A DNA stretch of 51,515 nt from the IMG/VR virus record IMGVR_UViG_3300045999_011051, positions 1 through 51,515 of that record. The stretch is one strand, 5' to 3'. Below the pieces are notes generated by a model. The model saw nothing but the letters and a program-made list of their open reading frames with translations, ran no database searches and had not been told where the DNA came from. The position numbers and the translations under genes are program-made. The stretch is from a virus. Shown here in pieces: positions 4,752 through 33,890 of this stretch. Within the stretch, counting starts at the first letter, position 1; each line of letters begins with the position of its first letter.

Positions 4752-4889
4752 CCTCGGCGATCGAGGTGATCCCGTGCTCACCGCGCACGAACATGCCGTG
4801 CGCTGACCCGTAGTCCAGGGCGGCCTCGAACACCTCACGGCCGCCCTGCTGACGGTCGCGGTAGGCCACGGCCCGCCATGCGGCACCGT
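4619..4889. repeat. Imperfect long inverted repeat across a convergent gene junction
   Basis: The arms are about 4619-4683 and 4820-4889. They arise because the convergent RHH and primase/helicase-like genes encode homologous C-terminal domains, so similar DNA lies in inverted orientation. A shared block on the coding strands is GCCGCATGGCGG. Transcripts through the junction could fold or anneal, though with many mismatches. Confidence 0.6.
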
Positions 4890-8454: not shown

Positions 8455-8762
8455 GCGGCGCCGCCGGTGTGGTCCGGGAGGAGTTCCGCGAGGACGGCGC
8501 CGGGTGCGAGGAGCCGGATGGGTGTGGCGTCGTGTGGGAGGGCGATGTGGCCTCGGGCGATGCCGATGGCGACGGCGTGGGCGCGGTCGCGGGCGCCGAT
8601 CTTGCTGCGCAGCCGCATGGTGTGGGCCTTGACGGTGTTCTCGCTGACGAACAGGGCGCGGCCGATCTGGGTGTTGGTGTAGCCCTCGGCCATGAGTCGC
8701 AGGACGGCGAGTTCGGGGCTGGTGAGGTCGAGGCCGGCGAGTTCGCTGTAGCGGGTGGGCAT
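8451..8762 (-). CDS. LuxR/GerE-type HTH protein
   Basis: A 103-residue protein with a GerE helix-turn-helix: LTSPELAVLRLMAEG, then TNTQIGRALFVSENTVKAH and LRSKIGARDRAHA. No receiver or sensor domain is present, so it is a stand-alone DNA-binding module. The ATG at 8762 shares one base with the stop of the Gp3-like gene (TGATG). It probably regulates phage transcription; lying inside the recombination operon, it may time late or early expression. That role is inference. Confidence 0.8.
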   Translation of the reverse strand: MPTRYSELAGLDLTSPELAVLRLMAEGYTNTQIGRALFVSENTVKAHTMRLRSKIGARDRAHAVAIGIARGHIALPHDATPIRLLAPGAVLAELLPDHTGGAA

Positions 8763-10419: not shown

Positions 10420-11249
10420 GCGGCCGCCTTCCCTTCGGCCGGCGCGGGCTTGAGGTCCCAGACGGTCACGGCGCGCTTGGCGGGCCGCTTCGTCCAGCTC
10501 AGGGTCACGTCGCGGGCTGCGAGGAACGCCGCGTAGACCTCGTCGCTGGTGTCGATCTGGTAGACGCGGTAGCCGCCGGTCTTGGCGTGCACGTCCGGGC
10601 GGATGTGGACGACGACGCCGCCGTCGGTGGCCGGCGGGGTGATCTCGGTGCCGTCGCGGAGCCAGCCGACGGTCGCGCGCCGGTAGGCGGCGAGCTGGAG
10701 CGCGGCCTCGTCGTAGACCTTCTTCCCGGTCTTCCAGTCCCCGGTGAGGAGCGCGGGGCCGCGGCGGGGCAGGCGGAGGCTGGTGTCGAGCTTCCCGGCC
10801 CACTGGTCGTCGGGGTTGGAGACGACGAGCTCGGCGGCCTCGAACTCGGGCTGTTCGTCGTCGAGGAACTGCTGGAAGGCCCGGAAGAACGGGGCCTGCT
10901 CCTCGGTCGGCTTCGGCATTGGGGCGCCGAGGACGCGCGCCTCGTAGACGTCGTGCAGTGCGGAGCCGAGGTCGGCGGCGGTGTCGCGCTTGCGTTCGGC
11001 GGCGCGGCGGAGCCACTGGTAGGCGTCCTCGCGGGCGGTCTCCCCGCGGAGGCGGGCGAGGCGGGGGACGGACTCCATGGCGCAGCGGGCGACCTCGATG
11101 GCGGCCCAGTGGACGAGGCCGGGCTTGGGGACGCCGCCTTCGATGAGGGTGGTGACGGAGTAGAAGTCGCCGTAGGGGGTGGAGTAGATGCCCTTGTCGT
11201 TGCGCATGGGCGCGTGGGTGAGGGGGGCGGGCTGTTCGAGGGTGGTCAT
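10416..11249 (-). CDS. RecB/Cas4-like PD-(D/E)XK exonuclease
   Basis: A 277-residue nuclease. Motifs of the RecB/Cas4 family appear in order: GSALHDVYE (His about 99), AGKLD (Asp about 155), TGDWKTGK (Asp about 171, Lys about 173) and the EAALQLAAY helix (Gln about 185, Tyr about 189). Phage enzymes of this type resect DNA ends for single-strand annealing; here it would pair with the downstream Gp3-like protein. The ATG at 11249 overlaps the previous stop by four bases. A later Met (MRNDKGIYS, residue 15) is an alternative start. Confidence 0.85.
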   Translation of the reverse strand: MTTLEQPAPLTHAPMRNDKGIYSTPYGDFYSVTTLIEGGVPKPGLVHWAAIEVARCAMESVPRLARLRGETAREDAYQWLRRAAERKRDTAADLGSALHDVYEARVLGAPMPKPTEEQAPFFRAFQQFLDDEQPEFEAAELVVSNPDDQWAGKLDTSLRLPRRGPALLTGDWKTGKKVYDEAALQLAAYRRATVGWLRDGTEITPPATDGGVVVHIRPDVHAKTGGYRVYQIDTSDEVYAAFLAARDVTLSWTKRPAKRAVTVWDLKPAPAEGKAAA

Positions 11250-11560
11250 CGGGTGCCTCCGGGGCGGCGTTGGTCGTCGGCGACAGAAGTGGCGGCCCAC
11301 GCCCCGGCGAGCGCGGCGGCGAGCGCGGCGCAGGCCAGGGCGAGGGCGGCTCGCGGGCCGGTCACGGGGTGGCCGCCGGGTCGATGGCCGCCGGGACGCA
11401 CGACGGGTGGTAGACCGTCGGCGACGGTCGAGTAGCCGACCTCGACGACGTGGCCGGGTGGGTCGTGGCGCTCGTACTGGCGGACGACGGTGAGGTGCCG
11501 GGTGGTGGCGTCCACGGTCTGGCCGCAGCCGTTGCAGGGCATGTCGAGGTCGGACGCCAT
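11246..11560 (-). CDS. Small Cys-motif protein with C-terminal membrane segment
   Basis: A 104-residue protein starting MASDLDMPCNGCGQ, a CxxC-type metal site. A central His/Gly/Pro-rich stretch leads to one hydrophobic segment of about 20 residues (ALALACAALAAALAGAWAA) and a short tail. A membrane protein is unexpected inside a DNA-metabolism operon. The start shares one base with the upstream DnaQ-like stop and the stop overlaps the exonuclease start by four bases. No function recognised. Confidence 0.6.
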   Translation of the reverse strand: MASDLDMPCNGCGQTVDATTRHLTVVRQYERHDPPGHVVEVGYSTVADGLPPVVRPGGHRPGGHPVTGPRAALALACAALAAALAGAWAATSVADDQRRPGGTR

Positions 11561-12378: not shown

Positions 12379-12683
12379 GACGCCTTCCTCTCGGTCACGG
12401 CGAGCTCGTCGCGCCACTCGCGGGCGGTGGCCAGCTCGTCGACGTACTTCCACGGCTTGCGCACGGCCTCGGCCAGGTCACCGGCCTCGAACTCGCCGGG
12501 CCCGGCCATCCACTCGGTGAGCAGGATCAGGTCGTCGTGGCTGGTCGGCTCGGACAGCAGCTGCACGGCGGGCGGCTGGTCGGTGTCGTCGACGTCGCGG
12601 CCGCAGGACGGCTCGTGGAGGTGGTCCCAGGTGCCGCAGGTGCAGTGACCGACCTCGCGGCCCGGGTAGCTGTCGGCGCTCAT
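12375..12683 (-). CDS. Hypothetical protein with N-terminal Cys/His motif
   Basis: A 102-residue acidic protein starting MSADSYPGREVGHC. The Cys/His spacing HCTCGTWDHLHEPSCG suggests a small zinc site; the rest is helical (LILLTEWMAG, DLAEAVRKPWKYV). It overlaps both neighbours by four bases. The MSAD start resembles other genes near 16-18 kb. Confidence 0.6.
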   Translation of the reverse strand: MSADSYPGREVGHCTCGTWDHLHEPSCGRDVDDTDQPPAVQLLSEPTSHDDLILLTEWMAGPGEFEAGDLAEAVRKPWKYVDELATAREWRDELAVTERKAS

Positions 12684-12976
12684 CGGACCGGCACCCCCCG
12701 GTACGGGAAGTACGCGGACGGGCCGGGCAGCGGCGGCAAGAACCTGGGGCCGCTGTCGGTGACGTCGGTCCACAGCCGCTCGTCCCGCTCGGCGTCGCCG
12801 GGGCTGCGGTGCTGGTTCGCGATCGGCGCGGCGGTCGCGGCGGCGAGCGCGAGGGTGGCGTGCACCGCCGCGAGGGCGGTGGCGGCGTCGGCGTCGGCGG
12901 GCCGGTCGGCGGCCCGGTGCTTGACGGCCTGGTCGAGGAGGTCCTCGGCGGTGCCGTAGTGGTGGGGTCCGTTCAT
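12680..12976 (-). CDS. Hypothetical Ala-rich helical protein
   Basis: A 98-residue protein starting MNGPHHYGTAEDLL. An alanine-rich helix (ATALAAVHATLALAAATAA) could be a weak membrane segment or a soluble helix; a Pro-rich tail (FLPPLPGPSAYFPYRG) follows. Four-base overlaps link it to the WhiB-like gene upstream and the Cys-motif gene downstream. Function unknown. Confidence 0.6.
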   Translation of the reverse strand: MNGPHHYGTAEDLLDQAVKHRAADRPADADAATALAAVHATLALAAATAAPIANQHRSPGDAERDERLWTDVTDSGPRFLPPLPGPSAYFPYRGVPVR

Positions 12977-13269
12977 GCGCGCTTGGCCTCCTTGAGGCTG
13001 GTGAGCGGGGTGAGGAGGTCGATGGAGGTGGTGGAGCCGCGGCCGTCGTCGACGCGGAGCAGGCCGCCCCACAGGCCGGTGTTGTGCTGCTGGCCGAGGG
13101 CGCGGCACTGGCGGCGGAGCGGGCAGGGGCCGCAGTGGGTGCGGGCGGTGCGGGCGGCGGCGCGGAGCTGGGCGACGGTGGCGACGAGCGGAAAGAACAG
13201 CTCTGCGTCGACGGTCTGGCAGGCGAGGGGCTGGTCGGTGTCGGCGGGCGGGTCAGCGAGCGCGGTCAT
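12973..13269 (-). CDS. WhiB-family iron-sulfur regulator
   Basis: A 98-residue WhiB-like protein. Cys 17, 46, 49 and 55 (CGPC, RRQC) are placed as in the [4Fe-4S]-binding set, followed by the GLWGG turn (65-69) that contacts the sigma factor in this actinobacteria-specific family. The basic C-terminal end (KEAKRA) is short. Phage WhiB proteins can interfere with host WhiB regulation or superinfection; which applies is not visible. It is the second gene of the replication operon, so it is expressed early. Confidence 0.9.
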   Translation of the reverse strand: MTALADPPADTDQPLACQTVDAELFFPLVATVAQLRAAARTARTHCGPCPLRRQCRALGQQHNTGLWGGLLRVDDGRGSTTSIDLLTPLTSLKEAKRA

Positions 13270-13643
13270 GCCGCGACCGCCTTCTCGTCGACGGCCGCCC
13301 GCTGCTCGACGACGTTCCGCTGGTTCTCACGCCGCGCGCGGGTCTGCGCCCGGTAGTGATCCCGGTAGTGATCCAGGGACTCACCGGTCCACGAGTCCTC
13401 CACCGTCCACCCGGCGGTCAGCGCGGCCGGCCGCACCTCGAACCGCAGGGCGTCGACGGCGGCGAGCGCGTCGAACAGGCCCCGCAGGTAGTCGCCGGTG
13501 GCGAACGGGTCACCGAGGGCGGCCATCTTCGACGCGGTCGTGATCTGTGCGGCGATCGCGTCGTGCGCGGGCCGCACAAGGGTGTTGTTGCTGGTGGTGG
13601 CGGTACCCGGCTGTGTCGCGGGGTCGCCGTAGAATGAAGTCAC
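13266..13643 (-). CDS. Hypothetical first gene of replication operon
   Basis: A 125-residue protein with no recognised domain: a Thr-rich start, a middle with DYLRGLFDALAAVDAL, and an Arg/Gln-rich C-terminal helix (RAQTRARRENQRNV). A GTG start at 13643 is preceded by AGGAAGG at good distance, one of the clearer ribosome binding sites here. The leftward operon promoter must lie in the adjacent 205-bp gap. Confidence 0.65.
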   Translation of the reverse strand: MTSFYGDPATQPGTATTSNNTLVRPAHDAIAAQITTASKMAALGDPFATGDYLRGLFDALAAVDALRFEVRPAALTAGWTVEDSWTGESLDHYRDHYRAQTRARRENQRNVVEQRAAVDEKAVAA

Positions 13644-13848
13644 TGGTCGCCTTCCTGGCAGTTGAGCGGTCGGTGCGGTGGGGTCCCGCGGCCCGTCTGG
13701 AGTTGGCGCTCCGGGCGGGCCCGACCTGTGTCCGGCGAGACCTACGGTACCAAAGTTTCGGGTTTTGTCGTATAGCTGCGTCGGGTTTGTTCGCAGAGTT
13801 CTACCACCGGCACGAGCCGTCGCCGAGGGCTACGCGGCGAACGGCAGG
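13644..13848. promoter_or_regulatory. Promoter/operator region of the replication operon
   Basis: 205 bp without a gene, relatively AT-rich around 13750-13800. It holds the 17-mer TTTCGGGTTTTGTCGTA at 13756-13772, which recurs in close form at both sides of the immunity region (18881-18897 in the opposite sense; 18974-18990). A looser copy (TCGGGTTTGTTCGCA) follows near 13781. A phage repressor operator controlling the leftward operon is the likely reading. Confidence 0.55.
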
Positions 13849-14061
13849 TCAGGACCCGGCAGGCCGGCCACGGTCCGCGCGCCCGTCCGGGAACTCGGCG
13901 CGCAGATGCGCGATCGCCTCACCCAGCGCCGCGTGGAACCGGTCAGCGGCGGCCAGGTCGTCGGCGTTCAGGCGCTGCGCCGGGACCAGCAGGAACGGCC
14001 CCAACGTCGTGATCCCACCCGGCCACACGTGGGGCGGGGAGCAGCGCGACGGCTCGGTCAC
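13849..14061 (-). CDS. Small hypothetical protein
   Basis: A 70-residue protein starting VTEPSRCSPPHVW at a GTG that overlaps the previous stop by four bases. The C-terminal half is a helix (AADRFHAALGEAIAHLRAEF). It is the last gene of the early operon before the regulatory gap. No function recognised. Confidence 0.55.
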   Translation of the reverse strand: MTEPSRCSPPHVWPGGITTLGPFLLVPAQRLNADDLAAADRFHAALGEAIAHLRAEFPDGRADRGRPAGS

Positions 14062-14498
14062 GACGCTTCCGGCCGGTCGTAGAGGGCGGCGATGTCGGCG
14101 AACACGGCGTTCTCCATGGCCTCGGTGTTGCGGTCGGCGACCCCGATGGGTGCGACCCACGACCACCGCTCCACCGACGGGTGGTCCCCGGGCCGGCCTG
14201 GTGGCCGGACGACGTACCCGGCTCGGACGAGGGCGAGGAGGTGTCCGCGGACTTCGGTGGCGGTGAGGTGGGCGGACACGATGTGGCCGTCGGTGCCGAG
14301 GCATTGGCGGAGCCGGAAGCGGGGGTGGCGTTTCAGTGCGTGGTGGTCGCCGCGGCAGAGCGCCCCGGTGGGGTCGGTGAGGGTGCGGGTTTGGCCGGGG
14401 AGGCGTGCGGTGATGGCGGTGGTGTCGAGGGTGTCTTCGGCGTCGCGGAGGACGGCTTTGAGCATGTCCCGGATCGCGGTGTCGGCGGGGTGGGTCAC
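14058..14498 (-). CDS. Hypothetical protein, possible winged helix
   Basis: A 146-residue protein starting MTHPADTAIRDMLK. A segment TATEVRGHLLALVRAGYVVR resembles the recognition helix and wing of a winged-helix fold, and a Trp-containing strand (VERWSWVAP) follows. Four-base overlaps on both sides. DNA binding is only a possibility. Confidence 0.55.
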   Translation of the reverse strand: MTHPADTAIRDMLKAVLRDAEDTLDTTAITARLPGQTRTLTDPTGALCRGDHHALKRHPRFRLRQCLGTDGHIVSAHLTATEVRGHLLALVRAGYVVRPPGRPGDHPSVERWSWVAPIGVADRNTEAMENAVFADIAALYDRPEAS

Positions 14499-15940
14499 GA
14501 CTCGGCCTCCGGCTGGCTGCCCCGGACGGGCTGACCGGCCGGGCTCTCATCGGCGAAGGGGTCCCGATCCGGCAGGGCGTCGAGCACCGCTACCGGCACG
14601 CCGATGGCGCGACGGCCCCACTGGTTGACGGCCTTGACCAGCGCTGCGGCCAGGTCGGGCGGGTGCATCCACCCGACCCGGACGTCGTTAGCGTCCACGA
14701 TCGATCGGAGGTAGCTGTTGCCGTCCCGGCGCCACGGCAGCGGGTGGTCCGGTGCGGCGGTGTCGTCGGCCGGGTCGTCGTGCAGCATCCCGGCCCCCTC
14801 CAGGGCGCGGACCAAGCGCCGCAGCGGCGCAGGACCGGTCAGCGGGCCAGCCTCCCGCACCTCGATCTCGATGCCGGCGCAGTCGGCGACGTTCTCGACG
14901 TGGCGGGTGAGGCGGTCGACGCGCTCGTCGCGGGACTCGACCATCCACGGCGCGTCCGGTGCGGCGGTGTCGTGGGCCGGGGCCCCGGACAGGGCAGCCG
15001 CGATCCGGACGGCGGTCGAGTGGTCGACGGACTCGCACACGAAGTCCCCGGACGGGTCGTAGACGTGGTCGAACTGCGCGGTGAAGGACCCGACCGCGGT
15101 CGCGGCCCTAGCCCGCTCGATGAAGTCGGCCGACTCGACATCACCCCACCCCTGCACGGCGGTGTCGTCGGCCGGGGCCGCGGACGGGACCCGGTACAGG
15201 GCCGAGATCGCGGCGTCGGCCCGCGATGCGTCGAAGTGCGCATCGATGTAGGCGCGCGCCTGCTCGAACGTCATCGGCGTCTGGCCGGGCAGGTCGACCG
15301 GCCCGGACTCCCCGGGGACCTGCTCGTCGGCCGGGGCCGCAAGTACCGCCCGCACGTCCACCGTCCGCACGTCCCGTCCCTCCCGCTCGGCCTGCTCGCA
15401 CACACCGAGCAGAGCGGCCCGGACCGCGAACACGTCGTCGAGCGTGCGCAGGTGATCGCGCCTCTCGGCCATGGCGTCGTCGGCCGGTGGCTGCCCGTCC
15501 GTGCGTGCGACAGCCGGGCGGGCGATCCGGTTCAGGTAGTTGGCGATCGGTTCCCAGCGCATCGTTCCGTCGTAGGCACGCTGGACGTCCTGTGCGGTCA
15601 GGTCACGCCCGGCGGCCGGGCGCGCGAGCACGGCACGCACGATCGTCGCCAGGAACCGGCCCGTACCGACCGACACTTGGCCCTCCTCCAGCGCGGCGAG
15701 CCGGACGTCGGTGCCTCGCCGCAAGTTCGTGATCGCCTCGGCCAGCTCGGTGTCCGGCCCGTCGGGCACATTCGGGGCCACGGCAACGGGTACGGGAAGG
15801 CCGCGAGCGCGCTCGATTGCAAGGGCCGCGGCCTTGACCCGCTCGATCCCCTGATTGGTGTGACGCCGGGTGTGCGCCAGGAAGCTCGCAGCTTTCACCA
15901 GTTCGGCCAGCAGCAGCGCCTCCGTGGGCTCGTTGGTCAT
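14495..15940 (-). CDS. Large modular hypothetical protein with PADDTA linkers
   Basis: A 481-residue acidic protein of unknown function, the largest gene of the early operon. It looks like short segments joined by near-identical linkers: PADDAMAE, APADEQVPG, APADDTAVQ, APAHDTAAP and DPADDTAAPD. The segments contain different helical or mixed stretches (for example MTFEQARAYIDAHF and a DDVFAVRAALLGVCEQ helix). No membrane segment or catalytic motif seen. The ATG shares one base with the preceding stop. The repeated linkers suggest growth by duplication or fusion of small genes. Confidence 0.6.
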   Translation of the reverse strand: MTNEPTEALLLAELVKAASFLAHTRRHTNQGIERVKAAALAIERARGLPVPVAVAPNVPDGPDTELAEAITNLRRGTDVRLAALEEGQVSVGTGRFLATIVRAVLARPAAGRDLTAQDVQRAYDGTMRWEPIANYLNRIARPAVARTDGQPPADDAMAERRDHLRTLDDVFAVRAALLGVCEQAEREGRDVRTVDVRAVLAAPADEQVPGESGPVDLPGQTPMTFEQARAYIDAHFDASRADAAISALYRVPSAAPADDTAVQGWGDVESADFIERARAATAVGSFTAQFDHVYDPSGDFVCESVDHSTAVRIAAALSGAPAHDTAAPDAPWMVESRDERVDRLTRHVENVADCAGIEIEVREAGPLTGPAPLRRLVRALEGAGMLHDDPADDTAAPDHPLPWRRDGNSYLRSIVDANDVRVGWMHPPDLAAALVKAVNQWGRRAIGVPVAVLDALPDRDPFADESPAGQPVRGSQPEAES

Positions 15941-19616: not shown

Positions 19617-20042
19617 ATGACGTTCCCCCGACGGCCAGCGCAGCCCGAACCCACCCCGGACCCGGTGCTCCCCCTCTTCCTCGACGTGTTGCGCGACAGG
19701 GGCCACGTCTCCTTCGTCCTCGCCGACCTCGACAACCGCTGCGGCATGGTCGAACTCGACAAGTCCGTCATCGTCCTCGACGCCAGCAACACCGTCGCCG
19801 AGATGCGCTCCACCATCTGCCACGAACTCCTCCACCTCCACTGCGACGAGTGCCCCGAGGACGAAGTCGAGGAGATGACCGCCGGGATCCTCGTCCCCCT
19901 CCAGGACGCCCTCGCCGCCGCAGCCGAAGCCGGCGCCGACATCGCCCAGGTCGCCGCCCGCCTCGGCGTCGACGAGCAGCTCGTCCGCGCCCGCCTCCGC
20001 TCCATCCCCCACCAGCAGGGATACGCCGATGGCGTGGGCTGA
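19617..20042 (+). CDS. ImmA/IrrE-like zinc metalloprotease
   Basis: A 141-residue protein with the HELLH motif (69-73) in a CHELLHLHCDE context and further acidic residues (EDEVEEM), typical of ImmA/IrrE peptidases, which cleave XRE repressors such as the preceding gene product. The C-terminus has an HTH-like helix (QVAARLGVDEQLVRAR). ATG 19617 chosen; GTGs at 19614 and 19584 are alternatives. It overlaps the integrase start by 14 bases. The 216-bp gap before it holds only a short palindrome, GGCTTCGAAAGCC (19532-19544). Confidence 0.8.
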   Translation: MTFPRRPAQPEPTPDPVLPLFLDVLRDRGHVSFVLADLDNRCGMVELDKSVIVLDASNTVAEMRSTICHELLHLHCDECPEDEVEEMTAGILVPLQDALAAAAEAGADIAQVAARLGVDEQLVRARLRSIPHQQGYADGVG

Positions 20043-21225
20043 GGAGATCCCCGGATCCGGACGGTGGCGCGGCCTCTACCGCGACTCCTCCGGCCGCAAA
20101 CGCACCGCCCCCGATGGGCCCTACAACACCGAGGCCAAGGCCAAGCGCGCCGCCGCCGTCGCCGAAGACGACGCCCGCCGCCGCCCCGGCCAACAGGTCA
20201 CCGGCTCCGCCCGGCTCACCTGGTCCACCTGGTGCGACCTCTGGTGGGGCCGGCGGAAAGTCGAACCCGGCACCCTCGCCCGCGACGCATCACGGCGCAC
20301 CGCGCACCTCGACCCCCGCTGGGGCGACGTTCGGCTCGCCGCGATCACCCGCGACCAAGTGCAGGCCTGGGTCGACGACCTCACCGACGCCGGCCTGTCC
20401 GCGTCCACCGTCGCGAACGTCTACCACCTGCTGTCCTCATCGCTGAAGGCCGCGGTCCTCGACGGCCGCCTCGCCGCCTCGCCGTGCACCTCGATCGCAC
20501 TGCCCCGACGGCCGCCGGCCGACGAACGGTTCCTCACCTGGGAGGAGGTCAGCGCGATCTGTCACCACCTCGACGACCGGGACGCGCTGCTCGTGTGGTG
20601 GCTGGTCGGGACCGGCGCCCGCTGGGGTGAAGGCGTGGGCGCGCACCGGCACCGGCTGCACCTGGACAGCAGCACCCCGCGCCTGGACATCCACGAGGTG
20701 TGGGACCAGCGGTCCCGGGAGGTGAAGCCCTACCCGAAGGGCCGCACGAAGCGGTCGGTGCCGCTGCCCCGGTGGCTCGTCGGGAAGCTCGAGGAGCACC
20801 TCGACGGCGACCCCGGGCGCGGGCGGTGCGGGTCGGCGCACCGGACGGGGTCGCGGTGCCGGTCCCCGCTCGTGCTTCCCGGGCGGGACGGGAAGGTCAT
20901 CGACTACGACTCGTGGCGCAAGACGCGGTGGCTCGATGCGTGCGCCCGCGCGGAGGTGGGGCATGTGCGGATCCACGACCTGCGCCACACGTACGCGTCG
21001 TGGTTGTTGCAGTCGGGGCAGGTGTCGATCGAGGCGTTGTCGGAGCTGATGGGGCATGCGTCGATCGCGGTCACGCAGCGCTACGCGCACCTGGCGGACA
21101 CGCAGTGGGGGAACGTCGTGGAGGCGCTGAACGGGAAGAGTGCCCCACATCTGCCCCAGAACGATCATGGTGCGGGTGGGCACGATCAGAATGTGCGCCG
21201 TATCAGCAGGTCAGACGGCGCGTGA
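20029..21225 (+). CDS. int: Tyrosine integrase
   Basis: A 398-residue site-specific recombinase. The N-terminus has an arm-binding-type segment (residues 10-50, GRWRGLYRDSSGRK), then a SAM-like core-binding domain (60-160) and the catalytic domain with Arg 198 (GTGARWGEG), His 316/Arg 319 (HDLRHTYASW), His 343 (MGHAS) and Tyr 352 (QRYAHL). All catalytic residues are intact. The box I context is slightly unusual, GEGVGAHR replacing the common GEL-type sequence. The 3' end contains one 18-bp arm-type repeat (21141) and the att core begins directly after the stop. Confidence 0.93.
   Translation: MAWAEEIPGSGRWRGLYRDSSGRKRTAPDGPYNTEAKAKRAAAVAEDDARRRPGQQVTGSARLTWSTWCDLWWGRRKVEPGTLARDASRRTAHLDPRWGDVRLAAITRDQVQAWVDDLTDAGLSASTVANVYHLLSSSLKAAVLDGRLAASPCTSIALPRRPPADERFLTWEEVSAICHHLDDRDALLVWWLVGTGARWGEGVGAHRHRLHLDSSTPRLDIHEVWDQRSREVKPYPKGRTKRSVPLPRWLVGKLEEHLDGDPGRGRCGSAHRTGSRCRSPLVLPGRDGKVIDYDSWRKTRWLDACARAEVGHVRIHDLRHTYASWLLQSGQVSIEALSELMGHASIAVTQRYAHLADTQWGNVVEALNGKSAPHLPQNDHGAGGHDQNVRRISRSDGA
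21141..21158 (+). repeat. Arm-type direct repeat, copy 1
   Basis: TGCCCCACATCTGCCCCA, made of two TGCCCCA words 11 bp apart, one helical turn. It lies inside the 3' end of the integrase gene. Likely integrase arm-binding site. Confidence 0.65.
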
Positions 21226-21271
21226 TGGTGCGGCGGGCCGGGCTCGAACCGGCAACCTGACGGGTTATGAG
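21226..21271 (-). other. att core: 3' half of a tRNA-CAU (Met or Ile2)
   Basis: Read on the minus strand: anticodon loop CTCATAA, then CCCGTCAGG, a T arm (GCCGG-TTCGAGC-CCGGC), CCGCCGC and ACCA. The 5' half is absent: upstream sequence has neither the matching acceptor strand nor a D arm, and the anticodon stem 5' side is imperfect (GCGGT). Identity stops at the anticodon loop, the usual crossover place. It is not a functional tRNA gene. Confidence 0.75.
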
Positions 21272-21389
21272 ACCGCAGCCGGTCCCGTGCAGGCCCGCGC
21301 ACGGTGACACGCGGTGACCACGATCGGCAGGCCAGGCGAGGTCCAGCGGCGTGGTCTCGTGCGCGGGCGTGCACCGGCGGACGGGATCC

Positions 21390-22328: not shown

Positions 22329-23138
22329 CTACGCCACCTCCGCGATCGGCCGGGCGGCGTCGAAGAGCTCGTCGAACCGCTTCCGGTAGATCGCCACCGA
22401 CTCCTCGTCGGTCAACCGCACCTCGTCGTTCTCCAGCTCGATCGTCACCAGCTGCTCGTCCCCGACATACACGTTGAAGCTCGAGTACGACCCCATCACC
22501 GCCGAGTCGTCCTCAAGCACCCGCACCTGCACCGACGGCAGCCGGTCGAGCTCCACCAGCTTCGCCGCCTGCGCGGACATCGAGACCTCCGGACCCGGAG
22601 GCCACGACAGAGCCCGCCGCGTCACCACGAACCGGAACTCCCGGCCCGCGCCGTAGAGCAGCTCCTGACGTCGCATCCGCGCAGCGACCGCAGCAGCCAG
22701 GTCCTGGTCCAGGTCGAAGCGGGCCAGCAGCGCCCGCGCGTACTCCGTGGTCTGCGCGAGGCCCGGCACATAGGCCTGCTCGTAGGAGCAGACCAGCGTC
22801 GCCGCCTGCTCCCGTGCGGCCGCGACGTCCTGCAGGTGCGGCACGCCGGCCTCGGACAGCGCGTCCGACCACTTCACCGTCTCGGCGTGCGCGGCCTGCA
22901 GCAGTGCCCGGACTCGATCGCTGGTCGCGTCGTCCGCCCTGGTGTGGGTCAGCCACGCCTCGGTGAGCGCCTTGTCCGGTAGCGAAGTGCCGGACTGGAT
23001 GCGGGAGAGCCGGGCGTGGTTGGACAGCTCCAGACGGCGTGCGAGCTCGCGGACAGTGAGCCCGGACAGCGCGCGCAGCTGCCCGAGCTCCGCGGCGAGC
23101 TGGCGGCGCAGTCTGGACGGCGGAGCGCTAGGAGACAC
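22329..23138 (-). CDS. XRE regulator with DUF5753-like domain
   Basis: A 269-residue regulator. Residues about 10-65 form an HTH (LTVRELARRLELSNHARLSR); the C-terminal 180 residues carry DUF5753 signatures such as YVPGLAQTTEYARALL, RMRRQELL and an RVLEDDSAVMGSYSSFNVY region. This family is abundant in actinomycetes and usually sits beside a small partner. Its stop lies two bases before the zinc-ribbon gene and its start overlaps the DUF6879-like stop. It may control the divergent transfer operon. Confidence 0.85.
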   Translation of the reverse strand: MSPSAPPSRLRRQLAAELGQLRALSGLTVRELARRLELSNHARLSRIQSGTSLPDKALTEAWLTHTRADDATSDRVRALLQAAHAETVKWSDALSEAGVPHLQDVAAAREQAATLVCSYEQAYVPGLAQTTEYARALLARFDLDQDLAAAVAARMRRQELLYGAGREFRFVVTRRALSWPPGPEVSMSAQAAKLVELDRLPSVQVRVLEDDSAVMGSYSSFNVYVGDEQLVTIELENDEVRLTDEESVAIYRKRFDELFDAARPIAEVA

Positions 23139-23709
23139 CGGGCACCTCGGCGCGCCGCCGCGCGAGGTAGTCGTTCAGGCCGATGGCGTACTCCCGGAGC
23201 TGGTCGGCGGCGTGGTAGAGCGCGGTGAGCTCGCCGGGATCCTGCCGGAGCTCGAACTCCACGGGCTCACCGCTGTAGCTGTAGTGCATGACGATCGCGA
23301 ACCGGTCGGCCTCGTCCTGCCCGTCGAACGCCCAGAAGTCCGGGAGCAGCGCGACCTGCTCGGGCAGGTCGGTGATGATGCTGATCTGCTCCCCCGCCGG
23401 GCCGGACTCGCCGTAGGCGAGCAGCTCCCAGCGGGTGTACTCGGTGAGGGGTTCGGTGACGTACCGGATCCGCTCCCACCGCTTCCCGGCCAGGGTCGTC
23501 GCAGCGATGCGCGCCAGCCACGGGTCGGTGGCCACCGACCGGACGGGGCGGGCGGTGCCGTCGCGGAACGCCCGCCAGGACGGTTCGTCGTAGTCGACCT
23601 GGTAGTGCTGCAGCCCCTCCCAGCGGAACACCGCGGAGGAGGTCTTCGACTGCGCGAACAAGTCGAAGTAGGAGTCGAACAGCTCGTAGTCGAGGCCGAG
23701 GCTGGTCAC
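23128..23709 (-). CDS. DUF6879-like protein
   Basis: A 193-residue protein from a GTG. It has an FDLFAQSKTSSAVFRWEG opening, then a WLARIAATTLAGKRWERIR segment, a YTRWELLAYGES strand and a FWAFDGQDEADRFAIVMHYS region, all signatures I associate with DUF6879 partners of DUF5753 regulators. No catalytic motif known. Overlaps of 11 bases with the regulator and four with the upstream small gene support one operon. Confidence 0.75.
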   Translation of the reverse strand: MTSLGLDYELFDSYFDLFAQSKTSSAVFRWEGLQHYQVDYDEPSWRAFRDGTARPVRSVATDPWLARIAATTLAGKRWERIRYVTEPLTEYTRWELLAYGESGPAGEQISIITDLPEQVALLPDFWAFDGQDEADRFAIVMHYSYSGEPVEFELRQDPGELTALYHAADQLREYAIGLNDYLARRRAEVPGVS

Positions 23710-24122: not shown

Positions 24123-24368
24123 GTGCACGCAACTCCCACACCCGCCGCCGCCCCGGCGACATCCCGTTGCTTGAGCTGCGGCGGTGAAGGCGCCGTCCGC
24201 GTCGTCGCCCCGGACGGGGGGCACGACCTGTGCGTGCTCCACGCCATGGCGCTTCTGCAGCAGGCCGAGCACGGCGTGCACGTCGCGGTCGTCATCGACG
24301 CGGACATCGCCTGCCCGTGGTGCGGCGCCGGGTCCGGGCACTTCCCCGGCTGCCGGGGTGGCCGGTGA
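24123..24368 (+). CDS. Small zinc-binding protein, first gene of transfer operon
   Basis: An 81-residue protein from a GTG with GGAGG six bases upstream. CLSCGGEG and CPWCGAGSGHFPGC are two Cys motifs likely to bind zinc. Small proteins like this start AICE or conjugative-plasmid transfer operons. The stop overlaps the next GTG by four bases. Confidence 0.65.
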   Translation: MHATPTPAAAPATSRCLSCGGEGAVRVVAPDGGHDLCVLHAMALLQQAEHGVHVAVVIDADIACPWCGAGSGHFPGCRGGR

Positions 24369-24553
24369 GCGCCCGGGGCGAGCGCGGAGCGTCGATGCTC
24401 CTGGTCGCGCTCGGGAACCTGCTGATCATCGCGTCGGTCCTGACGGAGCGGCCAGTGTCCACGGTGCTCGCCGTCGCGGCGCTGCTGCTCATCGTGCCGC
24501 AGGCCGTCCGCGGTCTCCGGGCGTGGCGCCGGACCCGACAGGAGATCCAGTGA
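24365..24553 (+). CDS. Small membrane protein
   Basis: A 62-residue protein from a GTG: a basic start, then two close hydrophobic stretches (LLVALGNLLIIASVL and VLAVAALLLIVPQAV) and a basic end (RAWRRTRQE). Probably an inner-membrane hairpin. Four-base overlaps with both neighbours. Resembles small Spd-like membrane proteins of actinomycete mobile elements in position, not clearly in sequence. Confidence 0.6.
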   Translation: MSARGERGASMLLVALGNLLIIASVLTERPVSTVLAVAALLLIVPQAVRGLRAWRRTRQEIQ

Positions 24554-25239
24554 AGCTTTGGCGCTGGCTGCAGCCGCACCTGACCGTCCCGCTCGTCGTC
24601 CTCATCGTCGGCTTCACCTTCTCCGCCGCCGCGAACATCGCCTGGTCCTGGGACGGCGGCCCCATCCGCGTCCTCGGCGGACTCCTCGCGTCCCTCGCCC
24701 TACCCGGCGCCATCCACATGTGGCCCCGCATCCCCGTCCACGGCACCTGGCACTGGCGGAACCGCGAGTGGCCGCTTCGGCGCGTCGTCCGCGCCGTCGT
24801 CATGACCCTCATCGCCAGCCTCGCCGCGGTCACCACGTTCGCGCACGCCTCCGCGCTGCTCATCGCCCACGGCGAGAACCCGGCCCTGGCGATGGCCTAC
24901 CCCGTCATCACCGAACTCGTCGTCGTCATGGGCGCCCTCGCTCACCAGGCAGGCGACACCCCCGCCCGGCACCGGGCGAAGCGTCCCGCCAGCGCGCATG
25001 ACGCAGGTCGCGCGCTGGCGGAGACACCCCCGAAGCGGACCCCGCGGGAACCGCTGCACGCCGTCGCTCCGGTCTCGACCGCCGCGCGGGCCCGGGAGTG
25101 GATCCGGACCGCGCTCGACGCCGGCCGCGACATCACTGGCGCCGACGTGGACTCCGCGCTCGGCCTGACCGGCAAGCAGCGGTGCGGCGCCCGCGAGCTC
25201 GGCAAGGTCCTCGCCCAGCGTGAGGCGGTGTCGGCGTGA
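24550..25239 (+). CDS. DUF2637/SpdB-like membrane protein
   Basis: A 229-residue protein from a GTG. About four membrane helices in residues 1-135 (VPLVVLIVGFTFSAAANIAW; VLGGLLASLALPGAI; VVMTLIASLAAVTTFAHAS; YPVITELVVVMGALA), then a cytoplasmic tail ending in an HTH-like ITGADVDSALGLTGKQRCG. DUF2637 proteins sit beside TraB/FtsK-like translocases in AICEs and Streptomyces plasmids and are linked to intramycelial spread. The same neighbourhood occurs here. Confidence 0.75.
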   Translation: MKLWRWLQPHLTVPLVVLIVGFTFSAAANIAWSWDGGPIRVLGGLLASLALPGAIHMWPRIPVHGTWHWRNREWPLRRVVRAVVMTLIASLAAVTTFAHASALLIAHGENPALAMAYPVITELVVVMGALAHQAGDTPARHRAKRPASAHDAGRALAETPPKRTPREPLHAVAPVSTAARAREWIRTALDAGRDITGADVDSALGLTGKQRCGARELGKVLAQREAVSA

Positions 25240-26009
25240 CCGCGGCGGAGACGACCCGGGCGCTGCGCCGGACTGGGGCCGCGATGCGGAAGGCAGCCGA
25301 TTCGGCGCGGCACTCGCTGACCGAGATCTCGTGCAAGCAGTGCCCGCCCGGGACGTGGGTGCGGCGCATGGACCTGGAGAACCACCGGTCCAACTACCAC
25401 CGGGCCGGCGGCTACATGTTCGAGCGCCGGAAGAAGGCCGCCGCCGACGCGAAGGCGGCCGAGCAGACCGCTGAGAAGGCCCGCCGGGACGCGGAGAAGG
25501 CCGAACGGCAGGCCGCAGCGCGCGCCGCCCGCCCCACCAACACCAGCAAGAAGGAGAACACGATGGCAGGCGACAAGAAGGACTGGTGGGCGCCGACGAA
25601 CAGCACCGGCGCGGCCCCGGCCGCGGCCGCGCGCAACGGCAACGGGCAGGCGCAGCGGTCCGCGCCGGCTGCGATGTCGGCGACCGAGGGCGTGGCGCAG
25701 CTGATCTGGACGTGGGCCCGTCAGGTGCCGCCGTCGATCCCGGCGTCGCGCGCGGATGCGCAGGCATCGGCGGAGATGTGGCGGCAGGCCGCGGACGCCG
25801 TCCGGGCGCGGGCCCGCGCCGAAGGTGAGGCGAACCGGATCCCGCCGGACCTGTTGGAGCCCTACCTGCAGGTCGCGCAGCTGCTGTCCCAGCTCGGGGA
25901 CCTGCACATGGAGGTCGTGAAGCGGATGGTGCAGCGGTACGGGCAGGTTGCGGAGACCCTGGCGGATCCGCGCACGCCGTCGGCGGAGTTCCTCAAGGGC
26001 GGCGTGTGA
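25236..26009 (+). CDS. Transfer-operon accessory protein with internal start
   Basis: A 257-residue protein from a GTG. A CKQC motif with two His residues (about 33-52) may be a zinc finger, followed by a charged coil (AEKARRDAEKAERQAAARAA) and a C-terminal helical half (ASAEMWRQAADAVRARARAE). A strong AAGGAG lies before an internal ATG at 25563 (MAGDKKDWWAP), which would give a 148-residue product of the C-terminal half. Its stop overlaps the translocase start. Similar proteins precede FtsK-like genes in AICEs. Confidence 0.65.
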   Translation: MTAAETTRALRRTGAAMRKAADSARHSLTEISCKQCPPGTWVRRMDLENHRSNYHRAGGYMFERRKKAAADAKAAEQTAEKARRDAEKAERQAAARAARPTNTSKKENTMAGDKKDWWAPTNSTGAAPAAAARNGNGQAQRSAPAAMSATEGVAQLIWTWARQVPPSIPASRADAQASAEMWRQAADAVRARARAEGEANRIPPDLLEPYLQVAQLLSQLGDLHMEVVKRMVQRYGQVAETLADPRTPSAEFLKGGV

Positions 26010-28192
26010 TGGCCCGGCGGGGAGGCCGCCGGAGTAAGGCGAACCGTGACATCGACGGCGTCATCATCGTCGTGGTCGTCGTGCTGCTCGGCGTCGCGCT
26101 CTGGCAGCGCCTGTCCTGGTGGCTCGTTGTGTTCGCCGCCGCCCCCGTCATCTGCTGGCTCCTCGCGATCCAGTGGGGCTGGCTCCGCCGCCACCGCCGG
26201 AAGCTCGCCCCCACCACCGCCGGGATCGCCGTCGCCGTCGCCGCCTACTCCTCCAAGGCCATCGCCGAGGTCGGCGGCCACGGCGGCTGGGTCCTCGGCG
26301 TCTACGCCGCCCTCACCGCCGCGATCGCCTGGGGCATCCGCGTCGACGAGTCCCGCGACCACCGCCGCTACTTCACCGTCGCCCTCATCGCCGGGCTCGC
26401 CTGGACGGCGGCAGTGCACCTCACCGACTGGGCCCGGTGGCCCGACATGGCCGGCACTTGGACGGTGCTGGTCATCCTCGCGTCCGCGTTCTGGTGGACC
26501 GACCGGCGCGTCATCCACGAGGTCAAGGCCGAGGAACGCGTCCGGTCGTGGCCCGAGATCGTGCGCGGCACCGAGCTCGCCGGGACGGTGCGGGAGTACT
26601 TCACCGAGAAGCCCGAAGGCGGCTGGCGGATGCGCCTGACCTGGGCGCCGGGGCGCAACCTCGTCGACGCCGTCCGCAAGCACGACCGGCTCCTCGAGTC
26701 GGTGATGGACGCGCCCCGTCGCTCGGTGACGATCGAAGCCGACGGCGCCAACGCCGTCATCGCCGAGTGCTCCCCCGTCGGATCCCTCGGAGCGCTGGTG
26801 TGGGACGGGCAGGTCGCCACGTCCATCGCCGACACCGTCATGCAGGCCCGCTACGGCGACAACACCGTCGAGGCCTACCCGCGGTGGGTGCCCGGCATCG
26901 GTGGGAAGCACAAGCTCCGCGCCGGGAAGACCCGGTCGGGGAAGTCCGGCGGGATGAAGCACGACGCCGTCGTCTACGGCCCCGCCGAAGACGTTGTGCT
27001 GTGGCTCATCGACCTCAAGGGCGGCGCCTCCCTGCGGGCGCTCGCGCCGATGGCGGACTGGTTCGCCACCCGCACCGACGAGGCCGTCGCGATGCTCGAG
27101 GCCGCCGCCCGGCTCTGCGACGCCCGCGGCCACTACATGTCCGAGCAGGGCTGGGACCCGTGGCAGCCGTCCCGGCAGCACCCCGTCATCGTGATCATGG
27201 CCGACGAGGTCGCGAAGCTGTTGGGCTACATGGCGCCCCACGAGGTGCAGGGCCGGGCGCTGGCCGCGGCCACGATCATCGGACAGCAGGGCGCCGGCCT
27301 CGGGATCCTCATCGACCCGGCCACCCAGTTCGCGACCCTCGAAGCGCTGGGGAGCTCCCAGTTCCGGGAGCAGCTCGCGCTGACCGAGTGCTACCGGATG
27401 CGGTCGGAGGGCACCGCAGCGCACTTCCTGCCGAACGCCCCGTCCGGGGTGGAGCCGGCTCAGCTGCCCGCGTCGTCACCCGGGGCGCACTACGTGGACG
27501 TGGACGGAGAGTTCCGGCCGCAGGTCGCGCAGAAGCCGAACGTCACCCCGGAGCAGGTGCAGGCGGTGGTCGCCGAGTACTGGGACACCACCCCGGAGAT
27601 CGAGGCCGTGCACCACCCGGTGCTCGGTGAGGCGTGGGCGCGACGCGACCGGTGGGTGCCGCAGCCCGACGGGAAGGTCGCCCGCGTCGCGTTCGACGCC
27701 GCGGGCCCGGACGCCGCGGCGGATGTCGCGGACCGCGACGAGGAGGACGAGATGCCGCAGCAGCACGGTGCGACACCCCGCGACGAGGTTGCGACGGTGT
27801 CGCAGCGCGCGTCGCAGCCGGTGTCGCAGCCCGAGTACCGGCCAGCGTGGGCGGGTGTCGCGGACGACGGCCTGACCTACGCGGCGGTCGTCGCGGCCGA
27901 CGCGGTACTGCAGACTCCGGAGCAGCGGGCCGCGGAGAAGGCCCGGCTGGTGACGTGGCTGGCCGAGACCCGCCCGGCCGACCCGGCGCAGGCCCCGGAG
28001 ATCGTGTGGCGGCTGCTGACCGAGGCCCCGGACGGGGAACCCGTCTCCCCTGGCGACGCCCAGCGCGCGTCCGGGCTGTCGGAGTCGACCGTGCACCGGC
28101 TGTTGCGCCGCTGGGAGGACGAGGGCCGGGTCGAGCACGTCGGGCGGGGCGCCTACCGGCCGGTCGTCGCCGGGGCGGTGACAGGCCTGTGA
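26009..28192 (+). CDS. FtsK/SpoIIIE (TraB)-type DNA translocase
   Basis: A 727-residue motor. About five or six hydrophobic segments lie in residues 16-165, then a linker and the motor with Walker A AGKTRSGKS (304-312), WLIDLKGG and Walker B VIVIMADE (392-399). The C-terminal 60 residues are a winged helix (RASGLSESTVHRLLRRW), the position of the DNA-reading domain in FtsK and TraB. Streptomyces TraB moves double-stranded plasmid DNA between cells as a hexamer. With the DUF2637 and YdjM-like genes it suggests conjugative-type transfer rather than phage packaging. ATG 26009 preferred; GTG 26006 possible. Confidence 0.85.
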   Translation: MARRGGRRSKANRDIDGVIIVVVVVLLGVALWQRLSWWLVVFAAAPVICWLLAIQWGWLRRHRRKLAPTTAGIAVAVAAYSSKAIAEVGGHGGWVLGVYAALTAAIAWGIRVDESRDHRRYFTVALIAGLAWTAAVHLTDWARWPDMAGTWTVLVILASAFWWTDRRVIHEVKAEERVRSWPEIVRGTELAGTVREYFTEKPEGGWRMRLTWAPGRNLVDAVRKHDRLLESVMDAPRRSVTIEADGANAVIAECSPVGSLGALVWDGQVATSIADTVMQARYGDNTVEAYPRWVPGIGGKHKLRAGKTRSGKSGGMKHDAVVYGPAEDVVLWLIDLKGGASLRALAPMADWFATRTDEAVAMLEAAARLCDARGHYMSEQGWDPWQPSRQHPVIVIMADEVAKLLGYMAPHEVQGRALAAATIIGQQGAGLGILIDPATQFATLEALGSSQFREQLALTECYRMRSEGTAAHFLPNAPSGVEPAQLPASSPGAHYVDVDGEFRPQVAQKPNVTPEQVQAVVAEYWDTTPEIEAVHHPVLGEAWARRDRWVPQPDGKVARVAFDAAGPDAAADVADRDEEDEMPQQHGATPRDEVATVSQRASQPVSQPEYRPAWAGVADDGLTYAAVVAADAVLQTPEQRAAEKARLVTWLAETRPADPAQAPEIVWRLLTEAPDGEPVSPGDAQRASGLSESTVHRLLRRWEDEGRVEHVGRGAYRPVVAGAVTGL

Positions 28193-28305
28193 CAGGACCG
28201 GGGCAGGACCCGGCCGCGGGGATGGATCTTCACAGGTCCGACAGGGGTTCCGGGTGTAGGTGGGAGCCCGGTGACCGGATGGTGACAGGACTCGGACAGG
28301 ACCGG
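28178..28305 (+). repeat. GACAGGACC repeat cluster after the translocase gene (clt-like candidate)
   Basis: GACAGG words start at 28180, 28191, 28240, 28284 and 28295, the best forms being GACAGGACC (28191 and 28295), with related GGCAGGACC at 28202. Two pairs are spaced 11 bp, one helical turn. They cover the end of the FtsK/TraB-like gene and the 117-bp gap after it. In Streptomyces plasmids the TraB recognition locus clt is a set of short direct repeats close to traB; the sequence differs here. Confidence 0.55.
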
Positions 28306-28309
28306 TCCG

Positions 28310-28864
28310 GTGCTCGGCCGTAGCCACGGCCTGGCCGGCGCCGCGGCCGGGCTCACGGTCGGGCTGGCCGCCCCGAGCGTCATGGTCGGGTTGGGCTGCG
28401 GTGTGGTCGGCTACCTCGCCGCCTATGTGCCGGACCTCGACCACCCGCGGGCGCGGGCGGTGCGGGTCCTCGGCCCTCTCGGCTGGCTGGCCTGCCGGAT
28501 GCTGCGAGGTCTGTCGACCGCGCTGGGGCTGCCGGCGCACCGGGGGCTGTCCCACACCGTGGCGTGCGCGCTGGGGGTCGGGGCGCTGGCCGGTGCGACG
28601 GCCGGGCTGTGGCTCGCCGTTGTCGCGGCGGTCGCGGTCGGTGTCGCAGCGGCCGCCGGGGTTGTCGCGGCGCTGCTCGGTGACTGGTTGACGGTGCAGT
28701 CGTTGCCGCTGCTGTGGTGGCCGCTGTCGCGGACCGGGTGGTGCCCGCCGCGGGGGATGCGGATGCGCACCGGTGGTGTCGCAGAGAAGTGGATCGTGGT
28801 CCCGACGCTCGTCGCGCTCGTCATAGCGCTGGGTGTCGCGCAGATGAGGAGTGGTGTCACATGA
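28310..28864 (+). CDS. YdjM-like membrane protein (DUF457, metal-dependent hydrolase family)
   Basis: A 184-residue membrane protein from a GTG. GRSHGLAGAAAGL, YVPDLDHPRA and PAHRGLSHT are the His/Asp motifs of the YdjM/DUF457 family, here among four or five hydrophobic helices. E. coli YdjM is an SOS-regulated inner-membrane protein of unknown activity; relatives occur in AICE transfer operons. The stop overlaps the next ATG by four bases. Confidence 0.8.
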   Translation: MLGRSHGLAGAAAGLTVGLAAPSVMVGLGCGVVGYLAAYVPDLDHPRARAVRVLGPLGWLACRMLRGLSTALGLPAHRGLSHTVACALGVGALAGATAGLWLAVVAAVAVGVAAAAGVVAALLGDWLTVQSLPLLWWPLSRTGWCPPRGMRMRTGGVAEKWIVVPTLVALVIALGVAQMRSGVT

Positions 28865-29109
28865 CCCTGTCGCACGAGGCCCCCGTCACCGCGCTGTCGG
28901 TGAACCAGGTGTCCGCCGAAGCCCTGCGGCGTGTCGCTGCAGCGCGGGAGGCAGCGCTTGTCGCCGGCCGCGAGGACCTGGCGGTGGAGTTGGCCGAGTT
29001 CGCTGAGGAGTTCGATCCGCAGAACTCGACCTGGGATCTGCAGGGTGCCGACTGGGCTCTGCCGTACGTGCTCGCCGCGCTTCTGGGTGTCACGGTGAGT
29101 GAGGTGTGA
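28861..29109 (+). CDS. Small hypothetical protein of transfer operon
   Basis: An 82-residue protein, start fixed by a 4-nt ATGA overlap. Helical (VSAEALRRVAAAREAALVAG), acidic in the middle (ELAEFAEEFDPQ), with a more hydrophobic end (WALPYVLAALLGVTV). No domain recognised. It precedes the M41-like peptidase gene with another 4-nt overlap. Confidence 0.6.
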   Translation: MTLSHEAPVTALSVNQVSAEALRRVAAAREAALVAGREDLAVELAEFAEEFDPQNSTWDLQGADWALPYVLAALLGVTVSEV

Positions 29110-29606
29110 CCGGCCCGGGGATCGACGTCCGGTCGAGGCGGTGGCTCGTCGCCGTCCACGAGGCCGGGCACGCCTGCGCCGCACGCTCCTTCGACTGGCG
29201 GGTCGCGTTCACTCGCGTCCACAGCGACGGCACCGGCCTGACCCGGGACGCGCCGCCGTGGCTCCGCGCCCAGCACCGCGCCGCACGCGAGGACATCCTC
29301 GTCAGCCTTGCCGGGCCCTTGGCCGACGAACGACTGCTGGCGGTGAAGCTGCCCCCCGACGGCCGCTACGACGATCTGCGGACAGCGGCGAAGGACCTGC
29401 TGCGTGCCGGGATCCCCGGTGGCTGCGAGTTCGACATGACGACCGCGCACCGCGACGCCGCCCGCCTGGGGGTTGCCCTGCCGGAGCTCATCGTGGAGGC
29501 CCGCCGCGTCGTCGTCGCGCGGTGGGCGGAGATCGAGCGGGTCGCCGCCGTGCTGCACGACCGCGGATCGCTCAACGGCCGTCAGATCGCGCAGGCGGCC
29601 CGGTGA
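29106..29606 (+). CDS. M41-like (FtsH peptidase-type) zinc metalloprotease domain protein
   Basis: A 166-residue protein from a GTG. VAVHEAGHACA is the HExxH metal site of FtsH-family M41 peptidases (His 18, Glu 19, His 22), followed by ILVSLAGPLADERLL matching the helix that carries the family's GxxAE-like element. There is no AAA+ ATPase or membrane anchor, so it is a stand-alone peptidase-like domain. Such proteins occur in actinomycete mobile elements; substrate unknown. Confidence 0.75.
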   Translation: MTGPGIDVRSRRWLVAVHEAGHACAARSFDWRVAFTRVHSDGTGLTRDAPPWLRAQHRAAREDILVSLAGPLADERLLAVKLPPDGRYDDLRTAAKDLLRAGIPGGCEFDMTTAHRDAARLGVALPELIVEARRVVVARWAEIERVAAVLHDRGSLNGRQIAQAAR

Positions 29607-29794
29607 TCGGACGCTGGTTCGGACGGCGCAGCCGCGACGACGGGTTCGGGCCGGTGTGCCCGGTGTGCGGCCGCTACGACTGGCCGGAGCAGCCGACTGT
29701 GGGGGTGCCGTGCGACTGCGGCGGGCACAGCAGCCGGTCGTGTCCGTGCGGGTTCACCGTGGAGATCCCGGAGCCGGGACCGGAGTGCGGGTGA
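29603..29794 (+). CDS. Small zinc-ribbon protein, last gene of transfer operon
   Basis: A 63-residue protein from a GTG (VIGRWFGRRSRDD). CPVCGRYDWPEQP, PCDCGG and SCPCG are three Cys motifs, enough for a zinc ribbon. Its 3' end overlaps the convergent lysis-region gene by 41 bases, so no separate terminator can lie between the operons. Confidence 0.6.
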   Translation: MIGRWFGRRSRDDGFGPVCPVCGRYDWPEQPTVGVPCDCGGHSSRSCPCGFTVEIPEPGPECG

Positions 29795-32948: not shown

Positions 32949-33213
32949 CCAGCAGTGCGAACGTGAGGAGCGCGAACGCGGCGGCGACGACGGGCATCTG
33001 CCACTGGAAGGGCTGGCCGAGGGCGGTGAGTCGGGACAGGGCGCCGACGAACAGCAGGATGGTGAAGGCGACGACCCGGGCGCGGTAGTGGATGGTGTCG
33101 GCGATGCGCCGGTACACCTGCCAGTAGGCGCCGGTGAGGATGAACCCGGCGAGGGCGGTGACCGCCCGGGCGGTGTCGAGGACGACGAGCTCGGGGGTGG
33201 AGAACGGGGTCAT
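32923..33213 (-). CDS. Multi-pass membrane protein
   Basis: A 96-residue protein with three hydrophobic stretches (ARAVTALAGFILTGAYW; VVAFTILLFVGALSRL; MPVVAAAFALLTFALL). It pairs with the downstream membrane gene, and both may come from duplication of a small membrane module, though sequence similarity is weak. ATG overlaps the collagen-like gene stop by four bases. Confidence 0.6.
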   Translation of the reverse strand: MTPFSTPELVVLDTARAVTALAGFILTGAYWQVYRRIADTIHYRARVVAFTILLFVGALSRLTALGQPFQWQMPVVAAAFALLTFALLGERRAHRP

Positions 33214-33890
33214 CGTGTCTCCTCGGCGGGGGGCTGCTCGGTGGTGTCGGGTGTGGGCTCGGTGATCTGGCAGCGGTAGATCGGGTCCAGGTCGGTGCCC
33301 GCCGCGCGCACGCAGGTGGCGGTGCGGCCGTCGGGGAGCAGGTAGGTGCCGGATGCGGGGGCGGGGGCGTCGCGTCCGTCGGCTCCGCGGCACTGGCCGG
33401 GTTCAGCGAGGCAGGGCGGGCTCTGACCGTCGGTGCCGTTCGTCCCGTCGTTCCCGTCCTTGCCGTCGGTGCTCACCCCGTTGGTGCCGTTGGTGCCGTT
33501 GGTGCCGTCGCGGCCTTGGCACTGGCCGGGGGTGAAGTAGCAGGCGGGGGTGAAACCGTTCACGCCGTCACGACCGTTCGTGCCGTCGGTTCCGTTCGTG
33601 CCGTCCGCGCCGTCGTCCCCGGCCTTCGTGATCACGTACGGGCCGGCCTGCCGAGCCTGATCGGCGGCCAGGCACGCCCCGGACAGGGCGAGCTCCGCCG
33701 CGGCGCTGGTGTTCTCCCGGCAGGTCTGCGCGACCGGCGCGACCACCGCGTCGATCTTGCCGCCCATCACCCAGGCCAAGCTCCACCCGCCGACCGCGAC
33801 CACGAACATGATGACCATCCCGGCGACGACGCGACGCGGATCGAACCGGGCGTTCTGGAGCGTGGTGCGCACGAACTGGCGTGTGGTCAT
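33210..33890 (-). CDS. Membrane-anchored collagen-like protein
   Basis: A 226-residue protein. A basic N-terminus and one hydrophobic helix (VVAGMVIMFVVAVGGWSLAW) are followed by collagen-type Gly-X-Y runs rich in GTNGTDG (about residues 93-155), broken by Cys-containing inserts (PACYFTPGQCQG, PPCLAEPGQCRG). The C-terminus has more Cys. Collagen-like repeats occur in phage fibres; here the anchor would place the trimer outside the membrane. GTG/ATG start fits a 4-nt overlap. Confidence 0.7.
   Translation of the reverse strand: MTTRQFVRTTLQNARFDPRRVVAGMVIMFVVAVGGWSLAWVMGGKIDAVVAPVAQTCRENTSAAAELALSGACLAADQARQAGPYVITKAGDDGADGTNGTDGTNGRDGVNGFTPACYFTPGQCQGRDGTNGTNGTNGVSTDGKDGNDGTNGTDGQSPPCLAEPGQCRGADGRDAPAPASGTYLLPDGRTATCVRAAGTDLDPIYRCQITEPTPDTTEQPPAEETR

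Follow-up and report, generated by a model that had tools for sequence, protein, structure and literature searches.

Actinomycete integrative conjugative elements (AICEs) are defined by three parts, Int, Tra and Rep, and those of the pSAM2 type carry an integrase with a tRNA att site and a TraB-type Tra protein with small membrane proteins encoded upstream of it (PMC3218068). In the theta plasmid pWTY27, transfer between strains was proven to need clt, which starts 16 bp before the end of the tra gene and extends 159 bp past it; the Tra protein binds its TGACACC repeats, and the winged helix of pSVH1 TraB reads repeated 8-bp motifs (PMC3583192). Phage structural genes and an FtsK/TraB-type transfer protein (gp071 in the gene table, which also lists a GntR regulator) occur together in the Streptomyces plasmid-phage pZL12 (phage ZL12, NC_013420), a 90-kb extrachromosomal element with ParA/ParB, which is a precedent for the combination of both modes as far as the account of Zhong et al. 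2010 given in PMC4487206 goes. The plaque-forming Thermobifida phage P1312 (KT021004, 60 kb) has a TraB-type translocase near its recombinase, published only as a segregation ATPase (PMC4569894). No description of integrative phages with TraB and clt was found in the literature searched, most subscription papers lying outside the search.

The stretch of DNA analysed here (the window) is a whole IMG/VR virus record of 51,515 bp (IMGVR_UViG_3300045999_011051) with a GC content of about 72%. Comparison with PHROGs identified genes for TerL, the major head protein, tape measure, endolysin, integrase, exonucleases and RuvC, which bears out the phage setting described in an earlier note on this DNA, and the first four together with the integrase identify a temperate tailed phage (Caudoviricetes). 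XRE regulators and an IrrE-like protease are also encoded. The ends of the window are joined by a further IMG/VR contig of 25,732 bp, L036: it matches positions 7026 to 1 at 99.99% and 51512 to 50765 at 100%, and spans the gap between them with 8,461 bp, for a circular map of about 59.97 kb. This contig encodes an 865-aa portal-type protein, assigned from position only; by eye, its head-gene region also includes an HNH-like ORF opposite to the gene direction (10889-11476) and a 665-aa SGNH-like protein (12588-14585). As the integrase gene ends right at a tRNA-Met gene of which only the 3’ half is present, attP is internal, and the record looks like a free phage genome rather than a prophage fragment with host flanks. 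Judged by its genes, the phage is a temperate virus whose host is known only as far as an actinobacterial-type genome. Genes in records without annotation were called with a simple ORF caller.

Table 1 Features of the window discussed in the text, with the basis of each assignment.
Feature	Position	Strand	Basis
Tyrosine integrase, g34	20029..21225	+	PF00589 E=4.4e-18; phrog_1 E=1e-65
attP, 3’ half of tRNA-Met gene directly past the integrase stop	21224..21279	-	79-81% to genomic tRNA-Met(CAT) genes
HTH/DUF5753 regulator, g38	22329..23138	-	PF19054 E=8.7e-30; PF13560
DUF6879 protein, g39	23128..23709	-	PF21806 E=1.2e-34
Small Cys-pair (zinc-type) protein, g41	24171..24368	+	Sequence only; no family above threshold
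52-aa membrane protein, g42	24395..24553	+	Hydropathy
DUF2637/Spd-like membrane protein, g43	24550..25239	+	DUF2637 17.0 bits, sub-threshold (cut-off 22.8); membrane segments
Accessory protein, no known family, g44	25236..26009	+	Profile searches
TraB-like DNA translocase, g45	26009..28192	+	NF041214; tree; winged-helix model
clt-like repeat array	28176..28308	+	Repeats; function inferred from pWTY27 (PMC3583192)
YdjM-like membrane protein, g46	28310..28864	+	PF04307 E=1.1e-15
No family assigned, g47	28861..29109	+	Profile searches
HExxH peptidase-like protein, g48	29106..29606	+	M50/M41 sub-threshold; HEAGH motif present
Small zinc-ribbon-like protein	29603..29794	+	Cys pairs in translation

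Nine rightward ORFs, all intact, occupy positions 24171-29794. The tight overlap claimed for them in the earlier note holds at most junctions (+26, -4, -4, -1, +117, -4, -4 and -4 nt) and fails at two gaps, of which the one behind traB, 117 nt long, is the key feature and goes unmentioned in the note. Its assignment for the translocase is the strongest in the block and that for the YdjM-like protein is solid, while others have weak family support: g48 has the peptidase motif with a sub-threshold M50/M41 score, the two zinc-type proteins are recognised by their Cys pairs, and g43 has the membrane segments of a DUF2637 protein with a family score below the cut-off. Alignment of g43 with a mixed DUF2637 set by hhalign gave nothing, and g43 might at most be Spd-like; both g42 and g43 are membrane proteins. 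The block is covered by one contig only. Its GC, GC3 and tetranucleotide composition are in keeping with the remaining sequence of that contig; by tetranucleotide distance it ranks 31st among 93 windows.

The translocase g45 matches the NCBIfam plasmid_TraB model (NF041214) over residues 58-717 with E=4.9e-16, its score of 58 bits lying far below the curated cut-off of 800; PF01580 remained sub-threshold (E=0.002). It combines predicted N-terminal membrane segments, a motor with conserved P-loop and acidic residues and, at the C-terminus, a winged helix that both Pfam and a model at pLDDT 83 support; the best Foldseek matches of this model were winged-helix DNA-binding domains, none below E 0.001. 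The motor domain reached only pLDDT 36 in structure prediction without an alignment. Although identity to other TraB proteins is only 25-31%, a maximum-likelihood tree placed g45 in the plasmid/AICE TraB clade, separated from chromosomal FtsK (100/100), and a chromosomal FtsK, which would have undermined the original proposal, was rejected on this ground. Its neighbour in the tree, with moderate support (90/85), is the TraB of the prophage G154 described below, and the nearest TraB relatives come from AICEs and conjugative-type plasmids. By homology, g45 is best described as a remote but full-length TraB. Searches of IMG/VR, INPHARED, PLSDB and one GTDB scan returned no relatives, or remote ones, of g45, g43 and the G154 TraB.

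Direct repeats of 8 bp, GACAGGAC, start at 28180, 28191, 28202, 28284 and 28295, two of them with one mismatch, in an 11-bp register. They run from the last traB codons through the 117-nt gap, just as those of pWTY27 run from the last tra codons into a noncoding gap, and a TGACA core is common to the pWTY27 repeat and the window (TGACAGGA) (PMC3583192). The three exact copies of GACAGGAC in the 51.5 kb all lie within the array, and its 11-bp register was equalled by none of 300 dinucleotide shuffles and, within the window, only by stretches overlapping this one. Copy number by itself was not significant, 27 of 300 shuffles matching it, and was dropped as evidence; by exact 7-mer ranking, the end of traB was only 4th among 73 gene ends. 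As the choice of the register test followed the sighting of the array, independent cases weigh more. By analogy of position with the pWTY27 clt, for which binding and transfer are proven, the array, known from its sequence, is a candidate clt. Several ordinary AICEs have comparable arrays 3’ of traB.

An alternating CGCGCG tract (e.g. TACGCGCGCGTGCG) follows traB in many TraB elements (L170, L171, L167, L115 and G154) and is absent 3’ of traB in the window.

The earlier note likened the block to the transfer region of an AICE. The element indeed shares with AICEs the Int function (Table 1), with attP in a tRNA-Met gene, a Tra protein of the FtsK/SpoIIIE-domain type, and small membrane proteins encoded ahead of it; unlike AICEs it is fully equipped with genes for virion, packaging and lysis, and RepSA, RepAM (DUF3631) and Prim-Pol were not found, most genes having been judged for this from the gene list. 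As no AICE-type Rep was found and virion genes are present, the element does not qualify as an AICE under the three-part definition (PMC3218068). The statement that no Rep gene is visible thus stands, among the genes tested, for Rep of the AICE type; a primase/helicase-like gene with DUF3987, g08, is however present at 4741-6222. No Rep or Par functions for extrachromosomal maintenance were recognised in the genes tested; an integrase and attP are present instead. Set beside the extrachromosomal pZL12, the phage appears from its gene content to be an integrative variant, and because pZL12 combines both modes, it is the integrative form that is new rather than the combination.

ARAGORN detected no full tRNA in the window, and attP was recognised starting from the integrase end. 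An AICE, L172 (G041:C1 5890471-5904812), is flanked by tRNA-Met matches to this attP, which suggests that phage and AICE integrate at sites of the same kind. The regulator g38 may possibly act as a repressor of the transfer block. A Gp3-like protein of a recombination-directionality-factor family (8762-9898; PF18897, E=7.7e-41) is encoded alongside the tyrosine integrase; such factors are known to accompany serine integrases.

Similar arrangements were found in other phages and prophages. G154 is a prophage of ~61.5 kb that interrupts comM in a 2.7-Mb contig, one half of the gene lying on either side (1-107 and 109-205 of the Mg_chelatase profile), with genes for a serine integrase, TerL, portal, capsid and tape measure. 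Its far att end carries traB, between the lysis genes and att, together with a Spd-like gene and a GntR gene. Just 3’ of traB, GCGGACA occurs five times in an 11-bp register that is unique in its 63 kb, and GGACA repeats are kept at this place in G673, G457, G422 and G399 (P 0.0015 to 0.014 each). Relatives of the G154 TraB (67-30% identity) occur in the prophages G673, G399 and G676; differences between the G154 and G673 traB genes by codon position (0.24/0.21/0.44) are compatible with purifying selection. Among the remaining relatives, a tape-measure match was found on the short contig G514, the length of G457 does not allow the element type to be judged, and G422 is a compact integrase/TraB element in which no phage genes were recognised. 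Two further phages carry different TraB proteins. G228, a contig of 54.9 kb on which phage head and tail genes lie, encodes one 38% identical to an Amycolatopsis plasmid TraB. P1312, which unlike the window’s phage uses a serine recombinase, has a third type, grouped with those of Hiyaa and pZL12; its traB stop is accompanied by TGTCAC repeats. The repeats of G228 and P1312 did not pass the register test, and no array was present at the traB stop of Hiyaa or of pZL12, whose TraB is of a distant lineage. At least three TraB lineages are therefore carried by phages according to the tree, and recurrence of a transfer module on phages is well supported by these comparisons.

Three readings of the block other than transfer between colonies were weighed. 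One is that TraB acts within a single mycelium, moving or segregating phage or prophage DNA across septa for the sake of spread or stability. Once transferred, known plasmids do spread through septal cross-walls, and Spd proteins interact with TraB (PMC4170104); DNA segregation is what the authors of P1312 suggested for its homologue (PMC4569894). This reading is nevertheless unlikely, given that the repeats at the end of traB correspond to a site whose necessity for inter-strain transfer was proven in pWTY27, and that the closest TraB proteins belong to AICEs and conjugative-type plasmids.

The second reading, for which chances are slim, regards the block as an AICE part picked up beside att and without present function, or the contig as chimeric. 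Cargo does land next to att, where the block is, g45 is divergent, and the block is absent from the related phage L002; a phage having lysis genes in common with this one lacks TraB. Phages sharing some genes but lacking the block exist, but the outcome that was to refute the note's proposal, such phages together with a misassembled window, did not come about. Against a relic stand the intact ORFs, the retained array, the normal composition and the independent prophages with the same arrangement and a conserved TraB. Moreover, the window’s phage shares core genes with TraB-bearing prophages (TerL 45% to G673, primase 44% to G399), which makes misassembly unlikely; it was rejected on the independent prophages, among them the one set within comM, and on the composition of the block.

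Last, FtsK-like genes are common in large actinophages, but that the translocase serves packaging, ejection or host takeover as in those phages is very improbable, since a canonical TerL is already present, related phages do without the module, and membrane segments, winged helix and repeat array suit transfer better.

The reading preferred here is that the block is probably a functional dsDNA transfer module of the plasmid/AICE TraB-clt type within a complete temperate actinobacterial phage. The integrated phage would excise at the tRNA-Met att site as a circle carrying traB and the array in cis. TraB hexamers in the membrane, with the C-terminal winged helix bound to the array, would then drive the double-stranded circle into an adjacent hypha or compartment, g42 and g43 perhaps aiding passage across septa, and the phage integrase would insert the transferred circle with no virions made and no lysis. 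Spread by virions would be retained alongside, so that the phage may have dual transmission and presumably a choice between the two routes. As the arrangement recurs in other prophages, direct transfer of DNA from cell to cell may be a further means of spread for such viruses. More tentatively, they could belong to a recurring group of integrative temperate actinophages that combine virions with TraB/clt conjugation of the excised prophage as duplex DNA, having taken TraB from several lineages and kept it near att by selection.

If this holds, a phage could leave its host without killing it and cross mycelium resistant to its virions, host DNA would perhaps be mobilised by such phages, and the boundary between phages and conjugative elements would be blurred in antibiotic-producing bacteria. 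TraB-specific repeats make the idea directly testable, with P1312 and lysogens of the G154/G673 type as material.

Some further features were observed. Pieces of the window between 2541 and 16988 (5% of the query) are 88% identical in DNA sequence to the Microcystis phage Mwe-JY05 (PP395638), a host label that is odd beside a phage of actinobacterial type with 72% GC. The head-morphogenesis protein of G399 (L247:14240-17569) has a C-terminal ADP-ribosyltransferase-like region (phrog_3895). Close to the lysis genes of the window, a protein with collagen-like Gly-X-Y repeats is encoded at 33210-33890, and it is also found in IMGVR_UViG_3300045996_001447 (53%).
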